From Thermoplasmatota archaeon (lineage in GTDB: Archaea > Thermoplasmatota > E2 > DHVEG-1), in the NCBI GenBank assembly GCA_029762575.1, contig JARVGL010000009.1, positions 1-33,570 of the forward strand: 33,570 bases of DNA. Reading direction: 5' to 3'. The notes beneath the pieces are model-generated. The model was not told where the DNA came from. It did not search any database and saw nothing but the letters and a program-made list of their open reading frames with translations. Of the stretch, positions 3,341 to 22,191 are shown in pieces. The stretch's first letter is position 1. Every line of letters starts with the position of its first letter. The position numbers were made by a program, and so were the translations under genes.

Positions 3341-3347
3341 ATAGAAA

Positions 3348-3539: not shown

Positions 3540-3542
3540 GAT

Positions 3543-3580
3543 AATAAGAAAAAAGTAGTAAATAAACGTTATTTCTTATT
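3543..3580 (+). terminator. Hairpin directly after the cold-shock gene
   Basis: A perfect 9-base inverted repeat (AATAAGAAA at 3543-3551, TTTCTTATT at 3572-3580, 20-base loop) begins four bases after the stop codon. It could be a 3' stability or termination element. The stem is A/T only and no T run follows, so this is tentative. Confidence 0.35.
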
Positions 3581-3699
3581 GCTACATCATGATAATGGAT
3601 TGTTTTGAATGGAGTAACATTACAAGATGCTTCAAGGAAGGAAGGGTTTTTATTTCATAACGATACCTGTTTTTTGTTTTTGATACGTAATACTAAGTT

Positions 3700-3843: not shown

Positions 3844-5048
3844 CTAGACAACTCGTGATACAAATGAAATTTCAAGAATTACCGATACAAAAAGAATTAA
3901 TAGAAATAACCAAAAAACATGATTTTACAGATTTGACCGCTATACAAGAACGATGCGTGCCTGAGATTCTTAACGGAAAGGATATCGTTGGTCAAGCTGA
4001 GACAGGTTCAGGAAAAACTATTGCATTTAGTCTTCCCCTTATAGACAAGTTGAAAGGGTCTGATCTCCAAGTACTTGTTCTTACACCAACTAGAGAGCTC
4101 TGTGTCCAGGTCAGTGATGTGTTCACCGAATATGCTAAACCTCTTGGGTTTACAACAACAAGCATATACGGGGGGGTTAAGATAGAACCCCAGATACGAT
4201 CATTACCTCGGTCACATATTGTTGTAGGAACACCGGGAAGAATCCTTGATCATATACATCGAAAGACCATTAATCTCAAGAATATTAGACATCTTGTCTT
4301 TGATGAGACAGATAAGATGTTTGAAATGGGTTTTATTGATGATGTTGAAGAAATCATCCATCATATACCACCTAGAAGACAAACCCTTATGTTTAGTGCT
4401 ACGATAACACCAGATATCGAAAAACTAGTAAAACGACATCAGAACAATCCATTGATCATTAAAACCCAATCCTATGTTGACACTAGTAAGCTCAAACAAG
4501 AATATTATGATATCTATCAGCAGAACAATAAGTTCTCCATCTTAGTTCATCTTTTAAAGAATATCTCTTCAGGACTTTCAATCGTCTTTTGTGCGACTCG
4601 AAAGGAATCTGATATCGTTGCAAGAAACCTTAAACGTCAAGGTATAAATGCTGCTGCTATCCATGGAGGAATGACGCAGGGGAAGCGATCAGAATCATTG
4701 AACCAATTGAAAAACCAGCAGATCGATGTTCTTGTTGCAACTGATGTAGCGGCTCGAGGTCTTGATATAAAGAACGTTACTCATATCTTCAATTATGATG
4801 TCCCTAAGACATCTAAGGAATATGTCCATCGTATCGGTCGTACTGCTCGTGCAGGTGAACACGGTTCTGCTATAACCCTTCTTACCCAACGGGATCATGA
4901 TAATTTCCGCCGGGTCCAAAGTGATGAGGACCTTGATATTTCGCGAAAGGAGATACCCCTGTTTAAAAAAGTCCCGTTTATCCGGGAGATACAACAAAGA
5001 AAGATGCCAATGAGACATAAAGGGTATCACCGATCTTTCAGACGTTGA
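3840..5048 (+). CDS. DEAD-box ATP-dependent RNA helicase (DETD variant)
   Basis: Superfamily 2 RNA helicase of 402 residues with both RecA-like domains. The Q motif lies around residues 11-36. Motif I is Ala-Glu-Thr-Gly-Ser-Gly-Lys-Thr (53-60), Ia Pro-Thr-Arg-Glu-Leu (83-87), II Asp-Glu-Thr-Asp (155-158, where most families have Asp-Glu-Ala-Asp), III Ser-Ala-Thr, V Ala-Thr-Asp-Val-Ala-Ala-Arg-Gly-Leu-Asp, and VI His-Arg-Ile-Gly-Arg-Thr-Ala-Arg. It ends in a short basic tail with no extra domain. It probably unwinds RNA in ribosome assembly or mRNA turnover. ATG 3864 gives the usual family N terminus (Met-Lys-Phe-Gln-Glu-Leu) and may be the true start; 3840 is the longer choice. Confidence 0.92.
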   Translation: MTRQLVIQMKFQELPIQKELIEITKKHDFTDLTAIQERCVPEILNGKDIVGQAETGSGKTIAFSLPLIDKLKGSDLQVLVLTPTRELCVQVSDVFTEYAKPLGFTTTSIYGGVKIEPQIRSLPRSHIVVGTPGRILDHIHRKTINLKNIRHLVFDETDKMFEMGFIDDVEEIIHHIPPRRQTLMFSATITPDIEKLVKRHQNNPLIIKTQSYVDTSKLKQEYYDIYQQNNKFSILVHLLKNISSGLSIVFCATRKESDIVARNLKRQGINAAAIHGGMTQGKRSESLNQLKNQQIDVLVATDVAARGLDIKNVTHIFNYDVPKTSKEYVHRIGRTARAGEHGSAITLLTQRDHDNFRRVQSDEDLDISRKEIPLFKKVPFIREIQQRKMPMRHKGYHRSFRR

Positions 5049-5064
5049 ACACTTATCCGTTCAA
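5045..5064. terminator. Inverted repeat between convergent genes
   Basis: TTGAAC (5045-5050) and GTTCAA (5059-5064) form a perfect 6-base stem with an 8-base loop across the junction of the helicase and the convergent peptidase, with an A/T-rich run after it. It could serve both directions, but the stem is short. Confidence 0.25.
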
Positions 5065-6281
5065 ACATTTAAAAAATTGTGAAAGAGGGCACGGTCAAAA
5101 AATAGCCCTTTACTTATTTTGCTTTCCTTCATATGTTTTTCTTGCTCGATCGTTTGAGCTCGTTCACAGATATAGAGGTTTACCTCAACATGTTTCTCGC
5201 ATGCATCTAAGACCAATGACGGGTTTCTCTCAGGTCTCCGACGACAAAGCTCCATGGTAAACGCTAGTATACCATGTTCTCCATATAACCAGTTCTCAGA
5301 TGAACCTGGTGTCCCCTGATATCGAGGTATGATATATTCTCTTTCTCCGTATTGCCCATAGATTTTTAGTTCGTAGTTATTGATATTAGACATGTTTGCT
5401 CCAATGGAGCGGTAGAGAGATTCATGGGGTGTGTGTCTGCTGGTATGCATCCAGGGAAAAATCATGAATTCTCCATAATCGTGATAGGATAATGAGATAC
5501 TGATATCATGGTTTTCGATAAATCGTTTCACTGCTTGTGTTTCTTTTTCTGAAAATGGTGCTTCTCCTCTATAGATCCAGCTTTGGTCGTTGAGGAGGTA
5601 TTCTAGGAAATAATTCTCAGGGAACAGATAGACGATATTCCACATATATCCATAGTTTCGATTTAAGTCTACACCATAGGAGGTGATGTTCGTACTTTGT
5701 CCATTGGCACCATAATTTGGTTCTCTATTCTTTCGCCACCCGTATTCTACTCCATCAGGATTCACCATGGGAATAATATATATCTGGGTCGTGTTAAGGA
5801 TGTCTCTAACCCGTTTGCACTCAGGGCTCTCATCACTATACTCATCACCGTCATCATCTATACTGTTCATTTGATAGGTGTCTATGATATAATTTATAAA
5901 AAAGATAAGGACCTCAAAAGAAGGTTTTTCATCACCATGATGGGCACCCATAAAAAGGACACTGGGTTCATCATCATCTCTTGTGACATTCTCAGATAGT
6001 TTCACCATCCAGATATCCCGTCCTTCATACGTAGTACCAATGGAAGTAAGCCTCATGATATCAGGATGGGCTTGACTAAGGTTATTAAGAAGTAAGGTCA
6101 TTGAATCATACGTATGATATTCATAGGGTGCAGACGATACGGTTTGAAAGGGGGCAAATATATTTTCTGATGATATTACATGGAATGCTGAAAACGTTGG
6201 GATTGTGCATAGCTGTAGTATGATAAAGAAAAAGAATAGTTTTTTTAGTATTATTGAGAAACCCATATATCTCAACTTCAA
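5061..6281 (-). CDS. Secreted M14 zinc carboxypeptidase
   Basis: An exported metallocarboxypeptidase removing C-terminal residues from peptides outside the cell. A basic start followed by a Phe/Ile/Leu-rich stretch (about 10-30) looks like a signal peptide or N-terminal anchor; Met6 is an alternative start. Zinc ligands are His115 and Glu118 (His-Gly-Asp-Glu) and His267 (Ser-Tyr-His). The substrate-binding motif Asp-Leu-Asn-Arg-Asn is at 205-209, and the catalytic Glu344 is in Phe-Thr-Met-Glu-Leu. An acidic Asp-Asp-Asp-Gly-Asp-Glu stretch near 142-147 resembles a calcium site. At 406 residues it is one peptidase domain with little else. It suits a peptide-scavenging lifestyle together with the cytoplasmic M14 protein at 16.6 kb. 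Confidence 0.9.
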   Translation of the reverse strand: MKLRYMGFSIILKKLFFFFIILQLCTIPTFSAFHVISSENIFAPFQTVSSAPYEYHTYDSMTLLLNNLSQAHPDIMRLTSIGTTYEGRDIWMVKLSENVTRDDDEPSVLFMGAHHGDEKPSFEVLIFFINYIIDTYQMNSIDDDGDEYSDESPECKRVRDILNTTQIYIIPMVNPDGVEYGWRKNREPNYGANGQSTNITSYGVDLNRNYGYMWNIVYLFPENYFLEYLLNDQSWIYRGEAPFSEKETQAVKRFIENHDISISLSYHDYGEFMIFPWMHTSRHTPHESLYRSIGANMSNINNYELKIYGQYGEREYIIPRYQGTPGSSENWLYGEHGILAFTMELCRRRPERNPSLVLDACEKHVEVNLYICERAQTIEQEKHMKESKISKGLFFDRALFHNFLNV

Positions 6282-7999: not shown

Positions 8000-8033
8000 T
8001 TTATATACAGTTTTTCTATATGGCCATATATGG
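8000..8033 (+). promoter_or_regulatory. lar promoter with palindromic operator candidate
   Basis: A TATA box (TTTATATA, 8000-8007) stands 23-30 bases before the larE ATG at 8030, so transcription should begin at or next to the start codon (leaderless). Between the box and the ATG lies a perfect 14-base palindrome, TATATGG-CCATATA (8017-8030), overlapping a second palindrome CCATATATGG (8024-8033) that includes the start codon. A repressor bound here would cover the transcription start. It does not look like a NikR site. Confidence 0.5.
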
Positions 8034-8827
8034 AGTATAAATTAAAAAACGTAACGGCTCAACTTTCAAAGATGAAAAAAGTTATCATTGCGTATTCTGG
8101 TGGTGTCGATAGTAGTTTACTTATAAAAATCGCGTATACTCTTCTTAAAGACGATGCAATAGCTGTTACAATCGCCTCACCGATGCATCCTGAATGGGAA
8201 AGAAAACAGGCAGAAAGAATTGCTAAAGAGATCGGGATACAACATATACTCATCTCGATCAAAGAAAACGAGCTAAAAGAAATATTTCAAAATAACAAGG
8301 ATAGATGTTATCATTGTAAAAGATTAATCTATTCAAAGATACAAAAAATCGCTGATGAAAAAAATATCCAATACGTACTTGACGGGTCAAATGCTGATGA
8401 TCTGTATGATTACCGACCTGGTTTCAAAGCTTTAGATGAATTACAAATAATAAGTCCTTTAAAAAAAGCAGGTTTAACAAAAACAGAGATCAGGAGATTA
8501 TCAAAAGAAATGTATCTTGAAACGTATACTATGCCTTCGTTTGCCTGTCTTGCATCACGTTTTCCATATACTGTAGATATTACGACGAAACGATTAAAAC
8601 AGGTTGAACACTGTGAGAAGATATTAATGTCTCTAGGTATACGACAATGTCGTGTTCGATATCATCAAGATATTGCAAGGATCGAGGTTGAAAAAAAAGA
8701 TTTTAATACAATACTTGATAATGTTGACATGATTAGTACAGATTTTAAAAAAAATGGATTTCACTATGTAACCCTTGATCTACAAGGTTATAGGACCGGG
8801 AGTTTAAATGAGGTTTTATACAAATGA
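8030..8827 (+). CDS. larE: LarE: ATP-dependent sulfur transferase of nickel-pincer cofactor synthesis
   Basis: Adenylates the carboxylates of pyridinium-3,5-biscarboxylic acid mononucleotide and inserts sulfur, the step before nickel insertion in the NPN cofactor of LarA-type racemases. The PP-loop Ser-Gly-Gly-Val-Asp-Ser is at residues 23-28. Gly-Ser-Asn-Ala-Asp-Asp (119-124) and Cys-Leu-Ala-Ser-Arg-Phe (173-178) are family signatures; Cys173 is the position of the sacrificial Cys of Lactiplantibacillus LarE. Cys93 and Cys96 (Cys-Tyr-His-Cys) add a pair, giving the three-cysteine set of LarE proteins that hold a [4Fe-4S] cluster, as in Thermotoga. At 265 residues it is full length. It overlaps larB by four bases (ATGA). 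No larA is seen in the window. Confidence 0.93.
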   Translation: MEYKLKNVTAQLSKMKKVIIAYSGGVDSSLLIKIAYTLLKDDAIAVTIASPMHPEWERKQAERIAKEIGIQHILISIKENELKEIFQNNKDRCYHCKRLIYSKIQKIADEKNIQYVLDGSNADDLYDYRPGFKALDELQIISPLKKAGLTKTEIRRLSKEMYLETYTMPSFACLASRFPYTVDITTKRLKQVEHCEKILMSLGIRQCRVRYHQDIARIEVEKKDFNTILDNVDMISTDFKKNGFHYVTLDLQGYRTGSLNEVLYK

Positions 8828-9552
8828 AAAAAATGTTAGAAGATTATAAAAAAGGAATAATACCGTTGAATAAGATCCTGGAAAAACTTGAGAGGCTGCC
8901 ATATGAGGATTTAGGGTTTGCAAAAATTGATACGCATAGAATCATACGAAAAGGTTTTCCTGAAACAGTCTACTGCAAAGGAAAAACAATAACTCAGATA
9001 ATTGATATCTTAAAGACTATGAATACTGATGATCAAAATATTCTAGCAACAAAAGCAAATAAGAAGATATATACCTCTATTAAAAAGGTTTTTTCAAATG
9101 CTGAGTATAATGAAGAAGCAAAAACAATCATAATAAAAAACGAAGTAATAAAACAAAAAAAAGGAACGATACTAGTCATAACCGCAGGAACATCAGATAT
9201 TCCCATAGCAGAAGAAGCAGTAGTAACTGCTAGCATTATGGGTAATACTGTTATAAAAGCATATGATGTAGGTGTAGCAGGGATACATAGGCTCTTTGAT
9301 ATAAAAGATAAGATGGATCAATCAAATGTCATCATTGTTGTTGCAGGAATGGAAGGTGCATTAGCAAGTATCGTTGGAGGTTTGACATCTAAACCGGTGA
9401 TAGCCGTTCCAACAAGTGTAGGATATGGTTCGAGTTTTCAGGGCATTGCCCCTCTTCTTACAATGATGAACAGTTGTGCAGAAGGCGTTGTAGTAGTAAA
9501 CATCGATAATGGATTTGGTGCAGGATATTTTGCTAGTCTTATCAACAGGTGA
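8824..9552 (+). CDS. larB: LarB: P2CMN synthase (nicotinate adenine dinucleotide carboxylase/hydrolase)
   Basis: Catalyses the first step of the nickel-pincer cofactor: carboxylation of nicotinic acid adenine dinucleotide and release of AMP, giving pyridinium-3,5-biscarboxylic acid mononucleotide. The N-terminal part has Gly-Phe-Pro-Glu-Thr-Val-Tyr-Cys-Lys-Gly-Lys (44-54). The C-terminal half is PurE-like, with Thr-Ala-Gly-Thr-Ser-Asp-Ile-Pro (120-127), Tyr-Asp-Val-Gly-Val-Ala-Gly-Ile-His (147-155), an Ala-Gly-Met-Glu-Gly-Ala loop and Pro-Thr-Ser-Val-Gly-Tyr-Gly. At 242 residues it is a normal length. It is coupled by overlaps to larE before and larC after. Confidence 0.94.
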   Translation: MKKMLEDYKKGIIPLNKILEKLERLPYEDLGFAKIDTHRIIRKGFPETVYCKGKTITQIIDILKTMNTDDQNILATKANKKIYTSIKKVFSNAEYNEEAKTIIIKNEVIKQKKGTILVITAGTSDIPIAEEAVVTASIMGNTVIKAYDVGVAGIHRLFDIKDKMDQSNVIIVVAGMEGALASIVGGLTSKPVIAVPTSVGYGSSFQGIAPLLTMMNSCAEGVVVVNIDNGFGAGYFASLINR

Positions 9553-9557
9553 GACCT

Positions 9558-10271
9558 ATGGCTACAGCATATTTTGATTGTTTTTCAGGAATAGCGGGCG
9601 ATATGATTCTAGGAGCATTTATTGATCTAGGATTGGATGTTGATCATTTTAAAAAAGAAATATCAAAACTATCTCTGACGGGTTACGAGATACAATGTAA
9701 GAGAATGAGAAAGAAAGATTACAATGCAATGGATGTTAACATCATTATCAAAGATAAACAACCTCATCGAACCTATATTGATATCAAAAAATTAATTGAA
9801 ACAAGCGATCTAACCGATCGTGTAAAAAAAATAAGTATTGATATCTTTTTCAATCTTGCAAAAGCTGAAAGCAAAGTACATAATGTTACTATCGAAACGG
9901 TTCATTTCCATGAAATAGGAGCAGTTGATTCAATAATCGATATTGTAGGTACCGCTATTGCCATTGATTTTTTTGATATTCAAGAAGTGTATTGCTCTTC
10001 ACTACCGTTAGGCAGTGGTTTTGTTTATTGTGATCATGGAAAAATATCTATTCCTGCACCTGCAACAAAAGAATTGCTTGTTGGGATCCCAACCTATGCA
10101 TTAGATAGTGGACATGAAATGGTTACACCTACGGGTGCTGCAGTAGTTAAAACGATTTGCTCAGATTTTAAAGAAAAACCTTGCTTTTTAAACGAAAAAA
10201 TAGGATATGGATCTGGAAAAATTAAAAGTAAACAATCCGGTGTTCTTAAGATATCTTTGGGAGAAATATAA
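9558..10271 (+). CDS. larC: LarC (LarC1 part only): nickel insertion protein
   Basis: LarC is the CTP-dependent nickel insertase that completes the NPN cofactor. This protein begins Met-Ala-Thr-Ala-Tyr-Phe-Asp-Cys-Phe-Ser-Gly, the family start, and keeps Val-His-Phe-His-Glu-Ile-Gly-Ala-Val-Asp-Ser, Leu-Pro-Leu-Gly-Ser-Gly-Phe-Val and Val-Thr-Pro-Thr-Gly-Ala-Ala. ATG 9558 is chosen because AGGTGAG (9547-9553) lies just upstream; a GTG at 9549 overlapping larB is the alternative. At 237 residues it stops where LarC1 stops. The C-terminal LarC2 half of full-length LarC (about 400 residues) is absent, and I see no LarC2-like continuation in the other frames downstream. LarC2 may be encoded elsewhere, or may have been lost when the next cassette arrived. 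Confidence 0.88.
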   Translation: MATAYFDCFSGIAGDMILGAFIDLGLDVDHFKKEISKLSLTGYEIQCKRMRKKDYNAMDVNIIIKDKQPHRTYIDIKKLIETSDLTDRVKKISIDIFFNLAKAESKVHNVTIETVHFHEIGAVDSIIDIVGTAIAIDFFDIQEVYCSSLPLGSGFVYCDHGKISIPAPATKELLVGIPTYALDSGHEMVTPTGAAVVKTICSDFKEKPCFLNEKIGYGSGKIKSKQSGVLKISLGEI

Positions 10272-10653: not shown

Positions 10654-11256
10654 ATGGAGAGGCTTGAAAAAATGCTTATCGATGCAGGCCAGTTTCATGG
10701 ACACATCTGTCCAGGCCTTGCTATTGGGGTGGTGGCCTCTGACATTGCTCTGGCCAACGCGCGGCGTTCAGAGGATGAAGAGTTGGTAGCCATCGTTGAG
10801 AATGACGCTTGCGGTGTTGATGCCATCCAGTACCTAACTGGATGTACCTTTGGCAAGGGTAACCTAGTGTTTAGGGATTATGGAAAATCGGTGTATATCT
10901 TTCTTAACCGAGTTACAGGAAAGGCCTTGCGTCTTTCTCTAAATCACTCTGTCATAGAAAGTAATTCCCAACCTAGCGATCGGATACTATTAGCCCGCGT
11001 CCGCGATGGAACTGCAACTCGGGAGGAGGTCAATGCTTTTCATGTTCGCTGGAAGCAGCGTGCCCGAGATGTCATTAACTGTGCTGAAACTCTATTTCAA
11101 GTTAAACCAGTGAACATAACCTTTCCTGAGAAAGCCCGCATACATGATAGTATCCCCTGCGACACTTGTAAAGAGCAGGTTATGACCACTCGGATTATAA
11201 GGAGCGAAACGGGGGACAAACTCTGCATTCCCTGTTATAAAAAAACCAAAGAATAG
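10654..11256 (+). CDS. FmdE-family metal-binding protein with C-terminal zinc finger
   Basis: A 200-residue cytosolic protein of the family named after FmdE of the molybdenum formylmethanofuran dehydrogenase operon; no enzymatic role is established for the family. The N-terminal Phe-His-Gly-His-Ile-Cys-Pro-Gly gives His15, His17 and Cys19, with Cys53 in Asp-Ala-Cys-Gly-Val-Asp and Cys64 in Thr-Gly-Cys-Thr-Phe-Gly-Lys-Gly, all candidate metal ligands. The C terminus has Cys169-x2-Cys172 and Cys191-x2-Cys194, a four-cysteine zinc finger. It is the first gene of an operon with a metal-complex type ABC importer ten bases behind, so a metal-handling or chaperone role is inferred. Base composition is richer in G+C than in the lar genes. 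Confidence 0.85.
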   Translation: MERLEKMLIDAGQFHGHICPGLAIGVVASDIALANARRSEDEELVAIVENDACGVDAIQYLTGCTFGKGNLVFRDYGKSVYIFLNRVTGKALRLSLNHSVIESNSQPSDRILLARVRDGTATREEVNAFHVRWKQRARDVINCAETLFQVKPVNITFPEKARIHDSIPCDTCKEQVMTTRIIRSETGDKLCIPCYKKTKE

Positions 11257-11266: not shown

Positions 11267-12370
11267 ATGAAAAGAAAACAAATATCCATTACTATGTTTA
11301 CGATTTTGCTTGCATTAGTTCTCTTTTTAGCTGGATGCATAAACGTTAAAACAGATAAAGGCGAAGAATATTTGAAAATTACAGATTTACTTGGTCGAGA
11401 GGTGAATGTTCCTGCTAATGTAGAACGCGTAGTGGGAGTAGCCTCTGGTGCGGTGAGAATGCTAACTTACCTAAACGCTACTGACATGATTGTGGGAGTT
11501 GAGGATGTCGAGACTCAGTCAGCCTTCACACCATATCAGTTTGCCCAGCCAGACCTAAAGTATCTTCCTGTGATAGGGCCAAAGCACGGAGGCGATGCTG
11601 AACTTATCTTGTCTCGGCAGCCAGACGTAATTTTCTATACATGCTCACAGCTGGAGCCTGCCACTGGTGAAACCATGGACGATCTTCAGGAAAAGACTGG
11701 CATTCCTGTAATTGCCATTGATCTAGGGGATCTAGGGAAAAGACGAGCGGTGTTTGAACAATCCCTCCGTCTTATGGGCGATATTTTAGGTAAGAATAGC
11801 AAAGCGGAGGATGTCATATCCTACGTCGACAGTGTTCTTACAGATCTTGACACTCGGACCTTGGGCATTGCTGATGCTGATAAGCCTTCAGCCTACGTTG
11901 GTGGTGTAGCGCTTCGGGGCGCAAGGGACATCTTATCTACACGGTCAGATTTTCCTCCCTTTGAATTCACCAACGTAAACAATGTTGCCTCTTCTGTGGG
12001 CACCGGTCATATGTTCATAGACAAAGAACAGCTCTTGGTATGGAACCCCGACATTGTGTTCGTCGATGCGTATAGTTATGACCTAGTGGTCGAAGGCAAA
12101 ACTAATGATACAACTTATTCCCTGCTGCAGGCCTTTGAGGATGGTGATATATACATCGTCATGCCATACAATTCCTACAACACCAATTTTGCAACAGTGC
12201 TTGCCAACTGCTACTTTGTTGGATCGGTAGTGTATCCGGAGAATTTCTCAGATGTGAACGTCACGGCCATGGCCGACGAGATATACACCACAATGGTAGG
12301 TGTACCTGTATACAAAAACATGGCCTCAACTTATCAAGGATTTGTAAAAGTGGAAATTGATTACTCCTAA
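11267..12370 (+). CDS. ABC transporter substrate-binding lipoprotein (FepB/BtuF type)
   Basis: Extracellular binding protein of a type II ABC importer for iron-siderophore, cobalamin or similar metal complexes. A basic start and hydrophobic stretch lead to a lipobox Leu-Ala-Gly-Cys with lipidated Cys24. The mature part has the Peripla_BP_2 pattern: Val-Glu-Arg-Val-Val-Gly-Val near the start, then an Asp-Val-Ile-Phe-Tyr strand, a long linking helix and the second lobe with Asp-Ile-Val-Phe-Val-Asp. It is 367 residues, typical for the family, and preceded by an AGGGGA site. The ligand cannot be read; uptake of a nickel, molybdenum/tungsten or iron complex are all possible given the lar and FmdE neighbours. 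Confidence 0.88.
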   Translation: MKRKQISITMFTILLALVLFLAGCINVKTDKGEEYLKITDLLGREVNVPANVERVVGVASGAVRMLTYLNATDMIVGVEDVETQSAFTPYQFAQPDLKYLPVIGPKHGGDAELILSRQPDVIFYTCSQLEPATGETMDDLQEKTGIPVIAIDLGDLGKRRAVFEQSLRLMGDILGKNSKAEDVISYVDSVLTDLDTRTLGIADADKPSAYVGGVALRGARDILSTRSDFPPFEFTNVNNVASSVGTGHMFIDKEQLLVWNPDIVFVDAYSYDLVVEGKTNDTTYSLLQAFEDGDIYIVMPYNSYNTNFATVLANCYFVGSVVYPENFSDVNVTAMADEIYTTMVGVPVYKNMASTYQGFVKVEIDYS

Positions 12371-12391
12371 ACCCCTGGGAAGACCCAAAAT

Positions 12392-13474
12392 ATGACAACT
12401 CTACCTTCAAGTGTATCAGTATCACCCAATCCGGCTGCACAGCACCGTCGGCAAAACCTTCATAAGAATATTATTCTTTTAATAGGGGGCATCTTGGTGA
12501 TAGTTATGGCCATGTATGCTCTCACCTTGGGACCATACCCAATGACAATAGGCGATGTAATCAGAGCGCTCATTGGCAACGGGTCAGATGTCTACCGAGC
12601 CGTGATATGGAACATCCGCATGACAAGAATCCTTTCTGCCATATTTGCAGGGGCTGCCTTGGCTGTATCTGGGATGGTCATGCAGAACGTCCTTAGGAAT
12701 CCCTTGGCATCTCCCTCTACTCTAGGAGTCTCCCGCGCTGCCTCCTTCGGGGCTGCCTTTGGTATCGTAATCCTTGGTGTAGGCTCGACACAGTCCCACT
12801 CGGTTTCTTTCGACATGCCTTACCTCATAGCACTTTCTGCATTCATTGCTTCTATCATCTCCACTGGTGTAATTATTCTACTGGCGCGCATAAGAGATGC
12901 ATCACCTGAGACTATGATCTTAGCCGGCGTAGCCATGTCATCCCTTTTCACTGCGGGTACAACCTCACTAAGGTACTTCGCAATCGATGAGGTGCAGTTA
13001 GGTTCCATCATATTCTGGACCTTTGGCGATCTTGGTCGAACCGAGTGGACTACCTTGACCATTATTGCGGTGTGCACAGTGGTTGCAATCATCTACTTTT
13101 TCCTTAATCGCTGGCGGTACAATGCCATTAACAGCGGTGAGGAGGTAGCCCGAACTTTGGGTGTTGATACCTCACGCACGCGTATCATAAGCCTCCTCGT
13201 CTCGTCGCTTTTGACGGCTCTTGTGGTCTCTTTTGTAGGCGTCATTGGATTTGTTGGTCTGGTGGTGCCTCACATCGTTCGACGGATTGTTGGTACAGAT
13301 TCTCGGTTCCTCATTCCCGGTTGCTGTATTGCTGGTGCACTTCTCTTACTAGTATCCGATACTGTGGCCCGTACTATGCTATCACCTGTAATCATGCCCG
13401 TTGGGATCCTTACCTCGTTCATTGGTGCGCCCTTGTTTATCTACCTTATTATTAGGGGGCGGAAGCATTGGTAG
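12392..13474 (+). CDS. FecCD-family ABC transporter permease
   Basis: A 360-residue polytopic membrane protein of the BtuC/FecCD fold, with a polar 25-residue lead and then about nine to ten hydrophobic spans. Family landmarks are Arg-Met-Thr-Arg-Ile-Leu near residue 75, Gln-Asn-Val-Leu-Arg-Asn-Pro-Leu-Ala-Ser-Pro near 105, Gly-Glu-Glu-Val-Ala-Arg-Thr-Leu-Gly-Val near 250, and Gly-Phe-Val-Gly-Leu-Val-Val-Pro-His-Ile-Val-Arg near 285, the coupling region facing the ATPase. It forms the channel of the importer as a homodimer. It overlaps the ATPase gene by seven bases. Confidence 0.92.
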   Translation: MTTLPSSVSVSPNPAAQHRRQNLHKNIILLIGGILVIVMAMYALTLGPYPMTIGDVIRALIGNGSDVYRAVIWNIRMTRILSAIFAGAALAVSGMVMQNVLRNPLASPSTLGVSRAASFGAAFGIVILGVGSTQSHSVSFDMPYLIALSAFIASIISTGVIILLARIRDASPETMILAGVAMSSLFTAGTTSLRYFAIDEVQLGSIIFWTFGDLGRTEWTTLTIIAVCTVVAIIYFFLNRWRYNAINSGEEVARTLGVDTSRTRIISLLVSSLLTALVVSFVGVIGFVGLVVPHIVRRIVGTDSRFLIPGCCIAGALLLLVSDTVARTMLSPVIMPVGILTSFIGAPLFIYLIIRGRKHW

Positions 13475-14265
13475 ACCTTGTCACAATAAATAATGTCTCA
13501 TTCAACTATGGAAAAATACCTGCACTGCGTAATATTACTCTTTCCATTCCGGCAGGTTCCCTGATTGGAATGATCGGCCCCAATGGATCAGGAAAGACAA
13601 CTCTTATCAGATGCCTTTGTGGCTTGGTTAAGCCATCAGGTGGAACTATTATAATTAACAGCAAAGATCTATCATCGCTAGGCCGACGTGATTTGGCACG
13701 TTTGGTAGGCTATGTACCTCAGGTGCAGGAAAAACCTTTTCCTGTGCCCATATTCGACGCTGTTCTTGCTGGGCGTATACCTCATCTGGAGTGGGCGCCA
13801 TCTATCTATGACCTTGATGTCGTGAGCCACATTCTGTCACTTATGGACTTGGAGGACATTTCCCAACGAAACATCAACACTCTTAGCGGAGGGCAGATGC
13901 AACGTGTACAAATTGCCCGAGCCCTTGCTCAGGAACCCTTGATATTATGCCTGGATGAGCCTACCAACAATCTTGATATCAAGCACCAATTGAGTCTTAT
14001 GAATCTGGTAAGAAACCTTACCAGGAACCGAAATATGCTTACCTTCGTATCCATCCACGACCTTAACCTGGCTTCTCAGTACTGCGACCGACTGGTGCTT
14101 CTAAAAAACGGCGAGATTTTTTCATCAGGTACACCACAGGAGGTATTAACTCGGGAGAACGTAAGAAACGTATTTGGGATAAATGTAGCCATTCATACCC
14201 ACGGCGATTTAATACACATCGTGCCCGTGAATAAAGCGGATGTTAGAAAACTTGAACATATCTGA
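13468..14265 (+). CDS. ABC transporter ATP-binding protein (FecE/BtuD type)
   Basis: ATPase subunit of the importer. Walker A Gly-Pro-Asn-Gly-Ser-Gly-Lys-Thr-Thr is at 37-45, the Q-loop at Val-Pro-Gln, the signature Leu-Ser-Gly-Gly-Gln-Met-Gln-Arg at 139-146, Walker B Cys-Leu-Asp-Glu-Pro at 161-165 and the switch His in Ser-Ile-His-Asp-Leu. The start is TTG at 13468, inside the end of the permease gene with GGGGG some 8 bases before; no better start exists before the first beta strand. At 265 residues it is standard. It is the last gene of the cassette, and the decayed larC copy follows about 110 bases later. Confidence 0.93.
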   Translation: MVDLVTINNVSFNYGKIPALRNITLSIPAGSLIGMIGPNGSGKTTLIRCLCGLVKPSGGTIIINSKDLSSLGRRDLARLVGYVPQVQEKPFPVPIFDAVLAGRIPHLEWAPSIYDLDVVSHILSLMDLEDISQRNINTLSGGQMQRVQIARALAQEPLILCLDEPTNNLDIKHQLSLMNLVRNLTRNRNMLTFVSIHDLNLASQYCDRLVLLKNGEIFSSGTPQEVLTRENVRNVFGINVAIHTHGDLIHIVPVNKADVRKLEHI

Positions 14266-15464: not shown

Positions 15465-15486
15465 ATGACGTAATATGTTTTTTGTT

Positions 15487-16557
15487 ATGCGAATAACAAA
15501 GGTATCTGCAATCCCTATTGAATTGGAATTGAACGAACCATTTTCTATTGCTAATGAGACGGTGGAAACCGCGGTGAATGTTTTTTTCAAACTTGAAACA
15601 GATGAAGGGATAACGGGTTGGGGTTGTGCTACACCTGATACGGTGACTTCAGAGACAGGTGAAACGGTGACCGCTATATTCCAAGTAGGTTTCAAGGATA
15701 TCTTGATAGGTTCTGATCCAACACGGATCAATCTGCTCAATGAGATCATTGAGGAAAAGATACAAGGAAACCCGTCAGCAAAGGCCGGGGTAAACATGGC
15801 GCTCTATGATATCCTAGGAAAAAAAGCACATATGCCTTTATATCGACTTCTTGGAGGATATAAAGAGAAGATCGAGACATCGATTACTATTGGGTTGAAC
15901 CCTGTTGATGTCATGATCGATAGGGCAAAAGATTGTGTTTCAAAGGGGTTTAGTTGTTTGAAAGTGAAATGTGGTATGGAACCAGATCATGATATCGAAG
16001 CTATCTTAGGGATTCGAAGTGCAGTGGGTCCTCAGGTAAAGATTCGTATTGATGCGAATGAGGGCTATACCCTTGAAAAAGCGCTTCGGGTGGTTGAAAC
16101 ATTAGAGAAACTTGGAGCAGATATCGAGATATTCGAACAACCCACTCCTGCAAAATATCTCTTTGCGTTAAAAGAGATCACTGCTCAATGTTCTGTTCCC
16201 ATCATGGCTGATGAGACCGCGTTCACTCTTAGGGATAGTCTACGGCTCATCAAACTTGAGATAGCAGATATGATCAATATCAAACTTATGAAGATCGGTG
16301 GTATCACTAACGCGTTAAAAGCAAATGTATATGCTGAACTTGCAGGTATCCCGGTCATGGTTGGATGTATGAATGAATCAATGGGTGCGATGGTTGCTGG
16401 TGTTCATACGGCATGCGCGGTGAAGAACATCATCTATGCAGATCTTGACTCAGCAATTGATTTCAAAGATGATGTGGTCAAAGGTGGTGCAACATATAAG
16501 GATGGATTTGTTATTCCGTCTGAAAGACCAGGGCTTGGTATCGAGGTGGATCTCTAG
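15487..16557 (+). CDS. Dipeptide epimerase of the L-Ala-D/L-Glu epimerase type (enolase superfamily)
   Basis: Mg-dependent 1,1-proton-transfer enzyme inverting the C-terminal residue of a dipeptide, or by analogy with DgcA an N-acyl glutamate. From Met 15487, acid/base residues are Lys161 (Lys-Val-Lys) and Lys266 (Lys-Leu-Met-Lys), and metal ligands Asp189, Glu217 and Asp242. Asp319-Leu-Asp321 is the Asp-x-Asp motif that binds a dipeptide's free amino group. The order and spacing follow Bacillus subtilis YkfB almost residue for residue as I recall that sequence. The YkfB Arg24 that reads the Glu side chain is not kept: the region here is Ile-Ala-Asn-Glu-Thr, so specificity is open. It is 356 residues and first in an operon with an M14 peptidase starting at the very next base. 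Confidence 0.9.
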   Translation: MRITKVSAIPIELELNEPFSIANETVETAVNVFFKLETDEGITGWGCATPDTVTSETGETVTAIFQVGFKDILIGSDPTRINLLNEIIEEKIQGNPSAKAGVNMALYDILGKKAHMPLYRLLGGYKEKIETSITIGLNPVDVMIDRAKDCVSKGFSCLKVKCGMEPDHDIEAILGIRSAVGPQVKIRIDANEGYTLEKALRVVETLEKLGADIEIFEQPTPAKYLFALKEITAQCSVPIMADETAFTLRDSLRLIKLEIADMINIKLMKIGGITNALKANVYAELAGIPVMVGCMNESMGAMVAGVHTACAVKNIIYADLDSAIDFKDDVVKGGATYKDGFVIPSERPGLGIEVDL

Positions 16558-17916
16558 GTGGACCGATTTGCACGTATCCTTAGAAATATTCCTCCCTATA
16601 GTAGGTTTCTTACTGTTAGAGAAATCGATACGTTGACTCAAGAAATAAGACAGATGCCAGGTGTCACACATCATGAGATCGGTAGCACTATTGATGGGCA
16701 ACCTTTGACGATGTTAGATATTGGAAAAGGCGATAAAACCGCGCTTATCATTGGAGTACCTCATAGTGATGAACCACTTGGTAGTCTTGTGATAACCTAT
16801 TTTGCTCGCTGGCTGGCTACTCATCAGGATGTAGACTATTTCGGATGGCGATGGTTACTTATACCTATCCTTGAACGACGGGGCATGCAGTTAAACCAAG
16901 GATGGTTTACGATGCCTAACTCACTAGCTTTAATGGTGAAATCATCATTTCGAGAGCCTACCGAGGATCAATACGAGTGGTCGTTTCCTATTGAGTATAA
17001 AGATTATCAATGGACGAAATCACGACCTGAGACCATAGCGGTCAAAAAAGTATTAGAAAAAGAAAAGCCTGATCTTCTCTGCGGTCTTCATCACAGTGGT
17101 TTTACCAATGCATATTATTATCTGAGTGAGGATTTCCCCCAGATCTATGAGAAATTATCAAGATTTGTAGCTTCATTGCGTATTCCATTAAGTGATTCTG
17201 CTCCAGATGTTCCTTTTGGGAAACAATTACACCCAGGTTTTTACCAGATGTATGGTCTAAAGGATTATCTAACGTATTATGAGAAAACAGATCCGCTCAT
17301 GCTACCCGCACTGAGAAGAGGAGCATGCAGTGATGAATGGTATCAAAACGAGATAGGTGGTTTTAGTTTTAACTGCGAAGTGCCAATGTATCTAAGTCAT
17401 AAGCTCAAAGATACATCTATAGCAAAAAAAACATATCTTGATATGATAACTGAACGGTATGAACGAAAAAAAACACGGGTCAACTATTCAGATAAATTCA
17501 TCAGAACTATTCGAGAATATGCAGATATGGCTGACCCTTTATTATATCCTCTAGCACAAAAACATATAGCAAATGCGAAAGCATCACTTGGTCACGAGGA
17601 AAGAATCCTTCGTTTAAAAAAGGATAGAGCCGTGACAAACGCAGATATATTCGAAAGTGAGGTGGTCGATGATCTTTTTGATCTATTCTTCCTTGGACAG
17701 ATATGGAGGGTTGCAGAAAGTGTCTGTGTGAAAGGGGGGGCTAAAACCATTTGCCGACAGATGGAGTTAGCGGATCTTGAGATCAAATTACTAGCGAAAA
17801 GTATACAAGAACGTGGATTGTTCTATCAGATCCCTTTACGTACCTTAGTAAAAATGCAACTGGGAAGCATCCTCTACATCGCAGAGGAATTAATGAAGAA
17901 CGAGGAGAAACAATAG
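16558..17916 (+). CDS. Cytoplasmic M14-family metallopeptidase or amidohydrolase-like protein
   Basis: Zinc hydrolase of the carboxypeptidase fold without a signal peptide, 452 residues. Candidate zinc ligands are His69 and Glu72 (Pro-His-Ser-Asp-Glu) and His178 or His179 (Gly-Leu-His-His-Ser). The likely catalytic Glu274 is in Phe-Asn-Cys-Glu-Val-Pro. The Asn-Arg pair of classical carboxypeptidases is not evident, and the C-terminal ~170 residues are helical and unassigned. It starts with GTG right after the epimerase stop, with GAGGTGGAT about 8 bases before. In E. coli the Ala-Glu epimerase gene neighbours mpaA, an M14 amidase cutting the gamma-D-Glu-diaminopimelate bond, so a glutamyl-peptide amidase is one inference. 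An N-acyl-glutamate deacylase is another. Confidence 0.75.
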   Translation: MDRFARILRNIPPYSRFLTVREIDTLTQEIRQMPGVTHHEIGSTIDGQPLTMLDIGKGDKTALIIGVPHSDEPLGSLVITYFARWLATHQDVDYFGWRWLLIPILERRGMQLNQGWFTMPNSLALMVKSSFREPTEDQYEWSFPIEYKDYQWTKSRPETIAVKKVLEKEKPDLLCGLHHSGFTNAYYYLSEDFPQIYEKLSRFVASLRIPLSDSAPDVPFGKQLHPGFYQMYGLKDYLTYYEKTDPLMLPALRRGACSDEWYQNEIGGFSFNCEVPMYLSHKLKDTSIAKKTYLDMITERYERKKTRVNYSDKFIRTIREYADMADPLLYPLAQKHIANAKASLGHEERILRLKKDRAVTNADIFESEVVDDLFDLFFLGQIWRVAESVCVKGGAKTICRQMELADLEIKLLAKSIQERGLFYQIPLRTLVKMQLGSILYIAEELMKNEEKQ

Positions 17917-17949
17917 ATTTTTGAAGAAGATATAGATGCCATGTTCATC

Positions 17950-18414
17950 ATGGACCAAGGAGTTATACGGACAGCAACAGAGAAGGATGTCCCAGAAATA
18001 GTAAAGCTAGAGAATAAATGTTTCCTTGATTCACAAGCTTATTCTGAATCTCAGATACGTTATCTAGTTAAAAAGGCAAATAGTTTTTGTCTTGTGGAGA
18101 CATCTGGCGATATCGTTAGAGGATGTATCATCCTCTTGTTCAGACGAGGATCAAAGATCGCAGGGGTTGAGACAGTGAATGTAGACCCTATATTTCAGAA
18201 CAGAGGGATTGGACGACAATTGATACAAGCTGGTGAAGGGGAGGCACGAAAACGTTTAATGAAAGCGATAAGACTTGAGGTTTCCGTTGGAAATACTCAA
18301 GCGATACTGATGTATCAACGATCCGGGTACATTATTACTGGGTTATTGCAGAACTATTATCAATTCAATTATTTCGGGTCTCGTGATGCATACCGGATGA
18401 AAAAGATATTGTAA
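17950..18414 (+). CDS. GNAT-family N-acetyltransferase (RimI-like)
   Basis: Acetyl-CoA-dependent N-acetyltransferase of about 154 residues. It opens Ile-Arg-Thr-Ala-Thr-Glu-Lys-Asp-Val-Pro-Glu-Ile, has the acetyl-CoA motif Gln-Asn-Arg-Gly-Ile-Gly-Arg-Gln-Leu at about residues 83-91, then Leu-Glu-Val-Ser-Val-Gly-Asn-Thr-Gln-Ala and Tyr-Gln-Arg-Ser-Gly-Tyr, the usual RimI-type end. ATG 17950 is preferred to 17941 for the family-like start. RimI relatives often acetylate protein N termini, but its place as third gene of the epimerase operon raises an amino acid or dipeptide substrate. It ends two bases before the end of the convergent MurL-like gene. Confidence 0.82.
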   Translation: MDQGVIRTATEKDVPEIVKLENKCFLDSQAYSESQIRYLVKKANSFCLVETSGDIVRGCIILLFRRGSKIAGVETVNVDPIFQNRGIGRQLIQAGEGEARKRLMKAIRLEVSVGNTQAILMYQRSGYIITGLLQNYYQFNYFGSRDAYRMKKIL

Positions 18415-18416
18415 CA

Positions 18417-19874
18417 CTAGACTTCATCTGAAAACACTGCTTCTTTTGTTGTTGAAACCCATGTGTTATCTTGTAGTATGCAATAGCCTATGGTATCTTT
18501 TTCAAGGAGTTGATAGAGAGATGAACGGAACCTCTCAGGGATCTTATAGGGGTTGCAGAGGACGCGCTCACCATGTATCATTTCAACATGCTGAGTGGCC
18601 TGAGGGTTCTGGTTATCCATATGAATATCTGATAGATAGAGTGAATGGTTCTTTTCATCCTCGTCTAATCGAAGTTTCGCTGTTTTCAATCGTTTTGTAA
18701 AACAAGCGATGTCTTTTTCTTGGAAATTCATCATTTTTGGATCTAGCTTGTTTGCAGCAAGAAACAACATCACTCCTAGACATTTAGAACAATGTCCGCA
18801 GGGTATGATTGAATCGTTGATGCTATGGCAGGAATGACATGATCGTTGCAGTTGAGCGAGATGTGGATATCGTTTCACAAGGATCCGTTGAACGATCAGA
18901 CCTGAGATACTTCGTAGCGCGGACCATTGGACCATTGAAGGGATACGTTTTGTGTACCACTGGTTCATTACATCATCGAAATCCTGATGTTGATCATAGA
19001 CCCCGTAATAATGTGGTATCCCTTTGTATACGGGGCGATCTCTTTGATCATCAAACTCGCTACCTATGAGAAGATTGCCGATGTGATGGTTTATGAACAG
19101 GGGGAGTAAGGCAAAGATGTAAAAAGGAAAGATGCAGAGTCTGATAGGATAGGTGTCAGCTTGTATCTCTCGATGATCCTTTCTGATGAAGGGGAGATTA
19201 TCAAGCATGAAGTTATAGAAACGATCAACATTTGTCCATACTCTCATCGTGTGTTCATCGTTTGCTTTATGGTATACATATGCGGTTCTAGCGGTTCTCC
19301 AGTGTCCTCCGCTCTCATTGACATACAGCGGATATACACTAGCATCTAATTCTTTGAGAAGTCCATAGGATAGAAGGCTTTCTTTTCCTCCGCTTGAGAG
19401 GATGCCACATTTGTTCATATCAGTAGAGGCGGAGAGGCTTGTATCCTTTCGCTTGTTCTTTGGTATAATATGTGCGCAGGGAAGAGAATCATCTGGTTTT
19501 ATACTTGTTTCATCAGGGAGATACTCTGAGAGAATGTAGTTGGTTCGTCTCCTTAGGATCTTATTGATATAGATATCCCTACTGAACACCCTGTTGAGAT
19601 GATTGAGAAGATGTATATCAGAGGTTGAGAGCGGGAACTCTAGTTCAAATTTCTCTGAGAACAACCCATAGTTCAACAAAGGCATACAGAATGCTAGGCG
19701 GAGGAGAGGAAGATATGTTTCATGTAAGGATGTCTCGTAGGAGAGCTGAAGAGAAAAACTGGTTTCTTTGCCGTCAAGATGAGTGAGCTGTACGGTAGCT
19801 TGTGTGGAATGATTCTTAATCAATGGTTCTGAGAGGGATATTGACGTAAAACTAAGGAGATCTTTCATGATCAT
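18417..19874 (-). CDS. MurL-like ATP-dependent glutamyl epimerase homologue
   Basis: A 485-residue soluble protein resembling MurL of Xanthomonas, which inverts the terminal L-Glu of UDP-MurNAc-L-Ala-L-Glu after ATP activation. Matching landmarks are a PP-loop-like Ser-Ser-Gly-Gly-Lys-Glu-Ser (160-166), Ile-Gly-Ser-Glu-Phe-Asp-Asp-Gln-Arg (270-278, where MurL has an Asn-Glu-Arg-Ser-like loop), and Tyr-Asp-Gln-His-Gln near 293. A cysteine cluster Cys346-x2-Cys349 with Cys359-Gly-His-Cys362-x2-Cys365 corresponds to the MurL Cys-Gly-His-Cys-x-Lys-Cys and probably binds zinc. I base this on remembered MurL sequences; overall identity looks low. Murein is not expected in an archaeon, so a different glutamyl substrate is likely. 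It overlaps the DUF1611 gene by four bases (ATGA) and is the last gene of its operon. Confidence 0.6.
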   Translation of the reverse strand: MIMKDLLSFTSISLSEPLIKNHSTQATVQLTHLDGKETSFSLQLSYETSLHETYLPLLRLAFCMPLLNYGLFSEKFELEFPLSTSDIHLLNHLNRVFSRDIYINKILRRRTNYILSEYLPDETSIKPDDSLPCAHIIPKNKRKDTSLSASTDMNKCGILSSGGKESLLSYGLLKELDASVYPLYVNESGGHWRTARTAYVYHKANDEHTMRVWTNVDRFYNFMLDNLPFIRKDHREIQADTYPIRLCIFPFYIFALLPLFINHHIGNLLIGSEFDDQRDRPVYKGIPHYYGVYDQHQDFDDVMNQWYTKRIPSMVQWSALRSISGLIVQRILVKRYPHLAQLQRSCHSCHSINDSIIPCGHCSKCLGVMLFLAANKLDPKMMNFQEKDIACFTKRLKTAKLRLDEDEKNHSLYLSDIHMDNQNPQATQHVEMIHGERVLCNPYKIPERFRSSLYQLLEKDTIGYCILQDNTWVSTTKEAVFSDEV

Positions 19875-20920
19875 ATAGCCTCAAGGGTCTCTAGCCTATC
19901 CACTAATCGATTTACTCCCTGGCTGAATGGTTCAACGGTTGGTACATTAAAAGTCTGTTCCATTCTTTTTGTGATGTCGGTGATGTCTTGCTCTGTCATG
20001 TTCTCGTTGTTTAATCCTATGCCTAGTAATGGTTTTTCAGTGAGTAGTTCTGCGATACGAACCACCCTAGCAGGATCAGGCATAGGATAATCGGGGAATC
20101 CATCGAGATTTTTTCGTTTTGGTGCATCTACAAGGATGAATCCGTCAATGTTTCCAGCGGTTAGTATCTCAAAACCTCCTGGGAAGAACGGATGAACAAG
20201 ACTTCCTTGACCTTCGATGATCATAACATCAGGTGTATCGTCATTCCAGGAAGCTAGGATTGCATCTTCAATACCTCCTGCAACGAAATCATTGATCAAT
20301 GCATCAATAACAACGCCATGTGGCCATCCTTGCATCCATCCTGTTTGACCAGTATAAATCATATCTGCTTTTTTCCCACGTTTCCTTAGTTCTTTAGTGA
20401 GAAGAACCGCTAATGTTCTTTTTCCAATCGCTGAATCCGTACCGATGAGAGCTATCCGTTTTGATTTGACTTTTTTGATTTCACCAGTATAGACTCGTTT
20501 GTGGTCTCGAAACATCTTCCGAACATCAGTGATCTGGCAATTATGCGTCTTTGCTAGTTCCATAAAGACTGGATCATCTGAGAGGAATTGGTGAAGCCCT
20601 GAGACCACATCTAACCCTTGTGTGAGTGCAACGATGACTGCTTGATCATAACCTATTGGTAACACTCCGCCTTCCGATACTGCACCAATGATAAAGACAT
20701 CCGGATCATATTCTTTGATGCTTTTCTTTAAATCGTTACGAAAAGGTATTTCCCGAGTGACACCGTCAAGATGATCTCCTGCATCTCCTTCGGGAAGAGT
20801 GGAGTCAATGACGCAAACCACATCAAAGCGATCGCTATGACGGACGAGACCATGCGCTGTCTTTCCATCTGCACAATGAAATAATCCTTCAACATAAACC
20901 AGCGCTCTCTTCTTTTCCAT
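19871..20920 (-). CDS. DUF1611 (DgcN-like) P-loop protein
   Basis: A 349-residue cytosolic protein of the DUF1611 family. The N-terminal Rossmann-like part (about 1-145) has Ile-Gly-Ala-Val-Ser-Glu-Gly-Gly. The C-terminal P-loop domain has Gly-Thr-Asp-Ser-Ala-Ile-Gly-Lys-Arg-Thr near 159-168, Tyr-Thr-Gly-Gln-Thr-Gly-Trp-Met near 189-196 and Ile-Glu-Gly-Gln-Gly-Ser-Leu-Val-His-Pro. Members named DgcN N-acetylate D-glutamate in marine bacteria and haloarchaea, next to the enolase-superfamily racemase DgcA. Here an epimerase of that type sits in the facing operon. A G-rich SD (GAGGGGGAAAG) precedes the ATG. It lies 42 bases after the PLP enzyme gene and is translationally coupled to the MurL-like gene. 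Confidence 0.88.
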   Translation of the reverse strand: MEKKRALVYVEGLFHCADGKTAHGLVRHSDRFDVVCVIDSTLPEGDAGDHLDGVTREIPFRNDLKKSIKEYDPDVFIIGAVSEGGVLPIGYDQAVIVALTQGLDVVSGLHQFLSDDPVFMELAKTHNCQITDVRKMFRDHKRVYTGEIKKVKSKRIALIGTDSAIGKRTLAVLLTKELRKRGKKADMIYTGQTGWMQGWPHGVVIDALINDFVAGGIEDAILASWNDDTPDVMIIEGQGSLVHPFFPGGFEILTAGNIDGFILVDAPKRKNLDGFPDYPMPDPARVVRIAELLTEKPLLGIGLNNENMTEQDITDITKRMEQTFNVPTVEPFSQGVNRLVDRLETLEAI

Positions 20921-20962
20921 CTACTTTCCCCCTCTTGTTTTCTTTTTATATATCATGGTGTC

Positions 20963-22147
20963 TTATTTTCTTCCAGTTAATACAACAACATATCTATCAC
21001 TAGGAAGAGTTTCTTTTTTATGCCGGTCTAAGAGTGCGATAAGCCCTGCTGTTGAGGCAGGTAACACATTCAATCCTTCTTTTTCCCTGATGATCTTTGC
21101 ATGGGTGAGCATCGTTTTATCACTTGCATATGATGCCCAACCACCTGTTCCCCTGATGGCTTCCAATGCATAGTCACCATCGATGCTTCGCCAGTTGATA
21201 AGGGGTTCATTGATGGGGGTCTCATGGATCTTTGCAGGTAACAGATCATCACAAGTTGGTTTGTTTTTAATATATGCTTGGATAATTGGGTTTTTTCCAA
21301 ATGCGGAGCCTGCGACGATCTTTGGGACCCGGGACGTTTTTCCTCTCCGATACAGGCTTTGGAATCCTTTATGTATACCTGCTAACGTCGTCCCATTTGA
21401 GACTGGTAAAGCGACCACTGCTGGCGCATCTCGAAGTTCATCATAGATTTCGTAGGCGATCTGACCATATGCTCTTAATTGGATCATGGTATTGTGACCA
21501 CCTGCGTTTGCATCATAGTAATCATGGTTATCGGCCATCTGTTGCGAAATGGCCACTGCGTTTTCGTAATCACCAGGCACTCGAATGATCTCTGCTTTGT
21601 TCTGAATCATTTCTTTGATCCGGTTCGTATGATAACTTTCCGGGATGTAGATAGCACAACGGAGTCCTCCAAGGGATGCAGCGAGTGCGATTGCAGCACC
21701 ATAGTTGCCACAGGTTGCAACAGTGACCGTTTCATATCCTCTTCGTAAAGCATCCATCACTTGAGCAAAGGCTATTCGATCCTTCTGGGTCCCTGTTGGT
21801 GTACTTCCTTCGAATTTAAGGTAGATATGACGAAGACCAAACTCTCGTTCAATGTTACGTGCACGGGTCATCGTGGTATCGCCGATCTCTGAATCGATGA
21901 TATCTTCAAAAGCCTCAAGTCGTTTATCTAATGGTTGATCGGGGTCTGCTGCTATTTTCTTCTGAGAGTCAAGTTCTGGAGCAATGGCGGGGGTCTGAGA
22001 TGTTGCTCCATCTAATAGAGAAAAAATTTCATCTAAGGTGACATGTTTAGAAGTCTTGTTGTCACCATTACCATTTTGAGTTGCCGTTGATTGCCCATTG
22101 ATATTGTTATGATCAGGGGGCTTATCTTCTTTTTTTGAATTATTCAT
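20963..22147 (-). CDS. Fold-type II PLP enzyme, threonine synthase-like
   Basis: Pyridoxal-phosphate lyase/synthase of the threonine synthase/dehydratase fold, 394 residues. Lys122 in Lys-Phe-Glu-Gly-Ser-Thr-Pro-Thr-Gly-Thr-Gln-Lys-Asp-Arg is the Schiff-base lysine. Thr-Cys-Gly-Asn-Tyr-Gly-Ala-Ala (near 144-151) and Pro-Val-Ser-Asn-Gly-Thr-Thr-Leu bind substrate and phosphate. Threonine synthase, a deaminase, or a racemase-like use of the fold cannot be told apart. The first ~45 residues are polar, Asn/Gln/Lys/Asp-rich and probably disordered, unusual for the family. ATG 22147 is preferred; a GTG at 22177 would sit nearly on the expected transcription start. First gene of the minus-strand operon with DUF1611 and the MurL-like gene. 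Confidence 0.82.
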   Translation of the reverse strand: MNNSKKEDKPPDHNNINGQSTATQNGNGDNKTSKHVTLDEIFSLLDGATSQTPAIAPELDSQKKIAADPDQPLDKRLEAFEDIIDSEIGDTTMTRARNIEREFGLRHIYLKFEGSTPTGTQKDRIAFAQVMDALRRGYETVTVATCGNYGAAIALAASLGGLRCAIYIPESYHTNRIKEMIQNKAEIIRVPGDYENAVAISQQMADNHDYYDANAGGHNTMIQLRAYGQIAYEIYDELRDAPAVVALPVSNGTTLAGIHKGFQSLYRRGKTSRVPKIVAGSAFGKNPIIQAYIKNKPTCDDLLPAKIHETPINEPLINWRSIDGDYALEAIRGTGGWASYASDKTMLTHAKIIREKEGLNVLPASTAGLIALLDRHKKETLPSDRYVVVLTGRK

Positions 22148-22191
22148 GGTTTTTTCCAAACGGTCTCTATACCCCACATCCAGAATTTACA

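Follow-up and report, generated by a model that had tools for sequence, protein, structure and literature searches.

DgcN is an N-acetyltransferase that acts on D-Glu, and DgcA is an N-acetyl-D-Glu racemase. The DgcN-DgcA route, which joins a DUF1611 protein to an enolase-superfamily racemase, has been described for the use of D-Glu (PMC10845958), and MurL acts on peptidyl Glu (PMC8788868). The L-Ala-D/L-Glu epimerases YkfB and YcjG, for their part, are partnered by a murein endopeptidase. Here we describe an archaeal locus that carries relatives of these enzymes side by side. It lies in a 33,570-nucleotide stretch of DNA (the window), which is the whole contig C161 of a metagenome-assembled genome (MAG; label G000, 1.58 Mb, 94% complete) and whose named relatives are Thermoplasmatota. 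The open reading frame (ORF) listing agrees with the sequence-only reading of this DNA in placing six genes in two convergent runs: an epimerase-like gene (EPI), an M14-like gene and a GNAT gene on the plus strand (15475-18414), and genes for a pyridoxal phosphate (PLP) enzyme, a DUF1611 protein and a MurL-like protein (MURL) on the minus strand (22177-18417). The stop codons of GNAT and MURL are 2 bases apart, EPI and M14 abut directly, and MURL and DUF1611 overlap by 4 bp. As that reading also held, both runs consist of families linked to the stereochemistry of amino acids or peptides. We tentatively suggest that the locus is an undescribed N-acyl or peptidyl amino-acid stereochemistry module with an ATP-driven MURL step.

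Conservation of the locus in archaea and bacteria

We surveyed 99 genomes related to the window at ranks from genus to phylum, and a collection of 84,980 species in which 256 places encode a MURL relative; locus counts refer to the best 80 of these 256. MURL orthologs were present in 22 of the 99 genomes (the window's own counted; the others 53-61% identical), plus one of 33% identity in genome G091, and were nearly always arranged as PLP-DUF1611-MURL with a convergent GNAT. In the larger survey, DUF1611 was adjacent to MURL in 74/80 loci, the PLP enzyme was a neighbor in 66, GNAT in 28 (convergent with MURL in 28/80), EPI in 10 and M14 in 7, so the linkage of the two runs on which the sequence-only reading depended is conserved in related genomes. 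These loci span Thermoplasmatota (including Thermoplasmatales and Methanomassiliicoccales), Bathyarchaeota and bacteria, the last labeled Deltaproteobacteria, Bacteroidales, Ignavibacteriae, Caldiserica and others, where single MAGs may carry binning errors. Because gene order, orientations and near-zero spacing recur in many genomes at 37-77% protein identity, the arrangement is conserved beyond chance. The Aciduliprofundum group carries DUF1611-MURL without the PLP enzyme and a Caldiserica contig carries DUF1611-MURL-GNAT all in the same direction, and therefore the minimal core is DUF1611 plus MURL. The near-invariant core is DUF1611 beside MURL, usually preceded by the PLP enzyme, to which the lineage of the window adds GNAT, M14 and EPI. 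In G003, DUF1611 and the PLP enzyme are missing beside MURL, but a run of unknown bases lies at the MURL start and this was not scored as a loss. An apparent 722-aa 'DUF1611 fusion' in G091 was rejected as a frame artifact of a high-GC genome, tblastn giving separate DUF1611 and PLP enzymes. In two Nitrosomonas MAGs (L129 8091-9536, L131 9004-10449), MURL stands alone, without DUF1611 or the PLP enzyme, and is convergent with a probable M18-type aminopeptidase (called by eye).

Two independent observations are signs of shared function. The first is that the middle gene of the core, DUF1611, has been exchanged in place for a bacterial-type copy while MURL stayed archaeal-type. In three loci of the Methanomassiliicoccales type (L071, L081, L083), DUF1611 is 57-64% identical to bacterial copies and 40-46% identical to those of the window type and Bathyarchaeota, whereas MURL is 51-62% identical to the same archaea and 32-37% identical to bacteria. 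Between the window and bacteria, identity is 54-67% for the PLP enzyme, the best conserved across domains, 39-43% for DUF1611 and 31-36% for MURL. The second is a fusion in Bacteroidales (L130) and Deltaproteobacteria (L128), in which the C-terminus of MURL is joined to a creatininase-family amidohydrolase (E about 1e-68) and is followed by an EPI of the same clade; an ignavibacterial locus (L132) matches them in its long ORF and in gene order. Thus, a hydrolase and EPI accompany the core in both domains, with M14 as the archaeal hydrolase and creatininase as the bacterial one.

Within the 99 genomes, full-length EPI and M14 orthologs occur in an identical set of 8, all MURL-positive, and the sole exception is a 101-aa EPI-like fragment in the MURL-negative G027. 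All seven EPI genomes of family f1 have MURL (7/7; Fisher p = 0.0026, not corrected for phylogeny). The EPI-M14 pair is a coupled, lineage-specific addition to the core. In 28 Thermoplasmatales loci, where the core is located among housekeeping genes, a D-aminoacyl-tRNA deacylase (PF04414) is encoded directly upstream of it (e.g. L101 5793-6590), a neighbor that fits a stereochemistry module. In Thermoplasmatales loci, a Tsr3-like gene also lies convergent downstream of the core.

Nearest described relatives of the proteins

Pfam and NCBIfam back every family call but that of MURL; those of MR_MLE_N/C, PALP, both the N- and C-terminal DUF1611 domains and GNAT are clear, and that of M14 is borderline. 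MURL had no match in Pfam, NCBIfam or PDB sequences. Its AlphaFold2 model is confident (predicted local distance difference test, pLDDT, 94), and its sequence contains an SSGGKES PP-loop at 160-166 and the motif C346-x12-C359GHC362SKC365. As a comparison set we used seven MurL homologs of Gammaproteobacteria, five of which stand beside a MurD-like ligase in the fetched stretch. In single hhalign comparisons, MURL matched these seven at E 5e-9 to 1e-8 and four unrelated controls at E >0.1, and its nearest profile was an unnamed PP-loop family (E 4e-18 to 2e-17). The latter is an uncharacterized family with weak QueC and DUF6395 matches, seen in two genomes of the window's family (L052 2916-4151, L053 437-1855). 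Like MurL, MURL has a homologous PP-loop and cysteine region, with C346, C359, C362 and C365 and the E, Q and LR positions in common, and a similar length. Unlike MurL, to which it is ~17% identical over 242 columns, it has LRLDxDE in place of the MurL motif KPFxCVG and keeps other partner genes, with no Mur-type (MurD2-type) ligase at the window locus. MURL-positive archaea have 0-2 weak Mur_ligase_M matches vs six in two genomes with a true MurL, and since there are at most one or two such weak matches, a muramyl substrate is unlikely there. MURL was therefore rejected as a true MurL, being nearer to another PP-loop family and lacking both a MurD2-type partner and a muramyl-ligase set. The label 'MurL' in the sequence-only reading thus gives way to that of a distant homolog, closer to an uncharacterized PP-loop family than to MurD2-linked MurL, in organisms that are unlikely to make the muramyl substrate; that reading had staked itself both on conserved linkage, which held, and on MURL not falling with non-MurL PP-loop proteins, which the profile comparison contradicts. 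Judged from its sequence, MURL is a MurL homolog, not MurL, and may work like it.

The DUF1611 protein, with a P-loop (GTDSAIGKRT) at 160, scored 182.5 bits against the DgcN model NF041892, below the cut-off of 480; Thermoplasmatota DUF1611s that are paired with DgcA-like proteins also fall below it (192-263 bits). In a FastTree phylogeny, all 76 operon DUF1611s group in one clade (76/76, local support 0.70), with eight DgcN-type copies and an Orr-linked copy outside. As in the DgcN-DgcA system, a DUF1611 protein and an enolase-superfamily racemase are encoded in one locus, which is consistent with N-acylation, racemization and hydrolysis. Unlike that system, the operon DUF1611s form their own clade, MURL, the PLP enzyme and a hydrolase are added, and EPI scores higher with an Ala-Glu epimerase model than with the DgcA model. 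In the same phylum, DUF1611 directly precedes a DgcA-like enolase-superfamily gene in six genomes, and G091 carries both such a pair and the MURL operon. A further DUF1611, from G034 (L225 1070-3250), lies closest to the operon clade, and its gene directly adjoins one for an ornithine-racemase-like protein (407 of 480 bits with the Orr model). DUF1611 relatives are thus paired with three unrelated kinds of enzyme tied to amino-acid stereochemistry, and it is mainly for this reason that we assign the module to amino-acid stereochemistry.

The best NCBIfam model for EPI was A_G_epim_Thtga (NF041118, L-Ala-D/L-Glu epimerase) at 233 bits, below its cut-off of 500, and the DgcA model gave 147 bits (cut-off 400). 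The catalytic set is complete (K163/K165, D193, E221, D246, K270, DxD 323/325), so EPI has the two catalytic lysines, three metal ligands and DxD expected of a dipeptide epimerase, although DxD occurs in DgcA-like proteins too and is not discriminating. EPI resembles YkfB and YcjG in this set and in its score to YkfB (1jpm, 236 bits). Unlike them, it has an M14 or creatininase protein as hydrolase partner, and its E28 aligns to Arg24 of B. subtilis YkfB, a Glu being found there in 12/12 operon EPIs. Arg24, in the 20s loop, is presumably the contact to the Glu side chain. Because an invariant Glu replaces it, Glu specificity of EPI is doubtful, a prediction from sequence. The bacterial operon EPIs have CMDES in common with the Methylococcus enzyme (3rit), which we take to be specific for cationic dipeptides.

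The M14 protein is just above the PF00246 cut-off (21.7 vs 21.6 bits) and its AlphaFold2 model is poor (pLDDT 54); its zinc-site residues H69xxE72, H178/H179 and E274 are invariant in nine homologs. The PLP enzyme scored 434 bits with PRK06381, above the cut-off of 266, a family whose name 'threonine synthase' rests on homology. It scored 110 bits with the ThrC model TIGR00260, below 167, and has CGNYG where ThrC carries its TGNTS loop. The MAG of the window encodes no other ThrC-like protein and no homoserine dehydrogenase (PF00742); five further genomes have both this enzyme and a canonical ThrC (G100, G102, G106, G107, G108). On these three grounds (TIGR00260 missed, no homoserine dehydrogenase, coexistence with ThrC elsewhere), we rejected it as a housekeeping threonine synthase.

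A possible stereochemistry module and its rivals

For the reactions and the substrate, we infer the following scheme. The substrate of MURL would be an amino acid with its alpha-nitrogen in an amide bond, either peptidyl or N-acyl; MURL would adenylate its alpha-carboxylate and, like MurL, spend ATP to epimerize the amino acid in one direction only. DUF1611, perhaps with GNAT, would be the N-acylating enzyme, in analogy to DgcN on D-Glu, and EPI would reversibly interconvert the L and D forms of the dipeptide or N-acyl product. Removal of the acyl or amino-acid group would fall to M14 or, in the bacterial MURL fusions, to the creatininase domain, and the PLP enzyme would supply or consume the free amino acid. 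Glu is possible as the substrate and is not favored over a cationic or other side chain. A broader proposal, which we consider doubtful, is that archaea without peptidoglycan produce or keep up a D-amino acid or a peptide with a D-residue through ATP-driven, one-way epimerization of a peptidyl or N-acyl amino acid; the enzyme would be of MurL type, taken over for a role outside wall synthesis and common to several bacteria. If MURL is an ATP-driven epimerase, stereochemical control paid for with ATP would exist outside peptidoglycan synthesis, including in wall-less archaea, and the D-aminoacyl-tRNA deacylase beside the core in Thermoplasmatales would gain an obvious rationale.

Several points weigh against this scheme. 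The nearest profile of MURL is the unnamed PP-loop family rather than MurL, and its fold is that of QueC/QatC, proteins known to ligate or amidate rather than to epimerize (PMC13329287). Most loci have the core without EPI, M14 or GNAT, and some without the PLP enzyme; therefore, the accessory genes need not share the substrate of the core. In G067, the EPI-M14 pair is on a contig other than that of the core, so its physical linkage to the core is not obligatory. The deacylase neighbor, too, may reflect inherited gene order only.

The strongest rival, which we consider rather unlikely, is that MURL is a ligase like QueC, QatC or Cap9, which activates a carboxylate by adenylation and turns it into an amide or into a conjugate with a protein or metabolite, the product then being processed by M14, creatininase and EPI; the output would be an amidated peptide or modified small molecule of unchanged stereochemistry. 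The best Foldseek matches of the MURL model are indeed QatC (E 7e-5) and QueC, the SGGxxS loop and the C...CxxCxxC zinc motif are of the QueC type, and ligation or conjugation is a known activity of the QueC family (PMC13329287, PMC13279940). However, the profile similarity to QueC is weak (hhalign E about 5e-5) and lower than that to MurL, and MURL falls below the QueC model (PF06508). MURL was rejected as the QueC of this genome, which has its own on contig C99, and as a defense protein, there being no PADLOC match. Its loci lack deazaguanine or defense neighbors, the partners being amino-acid and peptide enzymes rather than enzymes of 7-deazaguanine metabolism.

The sequence-only reading had all six genes acting on D/L-Glu or glutamyl peptides, either in salvage of murein peptides or in synthesis of a D-Glu compound. 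The best named model of EPI, the membership of DUF1611 in the DgcN superfamily and the action of MurL on peptidyl Glu speak for this, yet we find it unlikely. The Glu at the position of YkfB Arg24 and the placement of DUF1611 outside the DgcN-type clade, far below the DgcN cut-off, argue against Glu as the common substrate, as do the separate DgcN-DgcA-type pair in G091 and the near lack of Mur ligases, and the MurL, DgcN and Ala-Glu epimerase identities each fail their model or profile comparison. Murein salvage in particular is unlikely, the core lying among housekeeping genes in Thermoplasmatales and no transporter, secreted amidase or murein hydrolase being conserved beside it in the 80 loci. 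Least likely of all are two functionally separate units, the PLP-DUF1611-MURL core and an unrelated peptide-catabolism pair, EPI-M14, adjacent by chance inheritance in one lineage: the lack of the pair beside the core in most loci and its location in G067 fit this, but a same-clade EPI follows the core in bacteria and, the G027 fragment apart, EPI and M14 never occur without MURL in the 99 genomes.

The stereochemistry module that we favor is kept across Thermoplasmatota, Bathyarchaeota and several bacterial phyla and no described function was found for it, which points to an overlooked pathway. No description of the gene combination was found in the open-access literature (subscription journals and preprints being largely outside this search). 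Within this search, a MurL-like protein and a dipeptide epimerase in one locus likewise had no description; DUF1611 with an enolase-type racemase is already known from DgcN-DgcA (PMC10845958), which the sequence-only reading did not consider. Although the enzyme families themselves are known, the module, its conservation across domains and the fusion of MURL to creatininase appear to be undescribed.

Coordinates and surroundings

Table 1. The six genes of the locus, with positions in the window.
Gene product	Position	Strand	Length	Support
EPI: enolase-superfamily dipeptide-epimerase-like protein	15475..16557	+	360 aa	Pfam MR_MLE_N/C
M14-like zinc carboxypeptidase or deacylase, cytoplasmic	16558..17916	+	452 aa	PF00246 borderline
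GNAT N-acetyltransferase, RimI-like	17941..18414	+	157 aa	PF00583 2e-14; rimI 59 bits (cut-off 86)
MURL: MurL-like / QueC-like zinc PP-loop protein	18417..19874	-	485 aa	PP-loop + Cys motif
DUF1611 protein, DgcN superfamily, separate clade	19871..20920	-	349 aa	PF07755 1.7e-58, PF17396 1.7e-22
Fold-type-II PLP enzyme, PRK06381 'threonine synthase' family	20963..22177	-	404 aa	PALP 7.5e-54

The ATG at 15487 is the probable start of EPI, fitting the homologs better than 15475, and the ATG at 22147 is a possible alternative start of the PLP enzyme. A second EPI-M14-GNAT-MURL copy (88, 82, 61 and 70% identical, respectively), cut by the contig end, is found on contig C4 of the same MAG (1-4102, L051) and is either a paralogous locus or a contig of another strain binned into the MAG.

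Elsewhere on the plus strand of the window, LarE, LarB and LarC, of nickel-pincer cofactor synthesis, are consecutive at 8030-10271, and no LarA was noticed among the window ORFs (the rest of the genome was not searched for it). Downstream of the Lar genes are an FmdE protein (10654-11256) and a metal/cobalamin-type ABC importer (11267-14265). On the minus strand, at 5061-6281, the window encodes a second M14 carboxypeptidase, with a clear score (191 bits) and a signal-peptide-like hydrophobic N-terminus.

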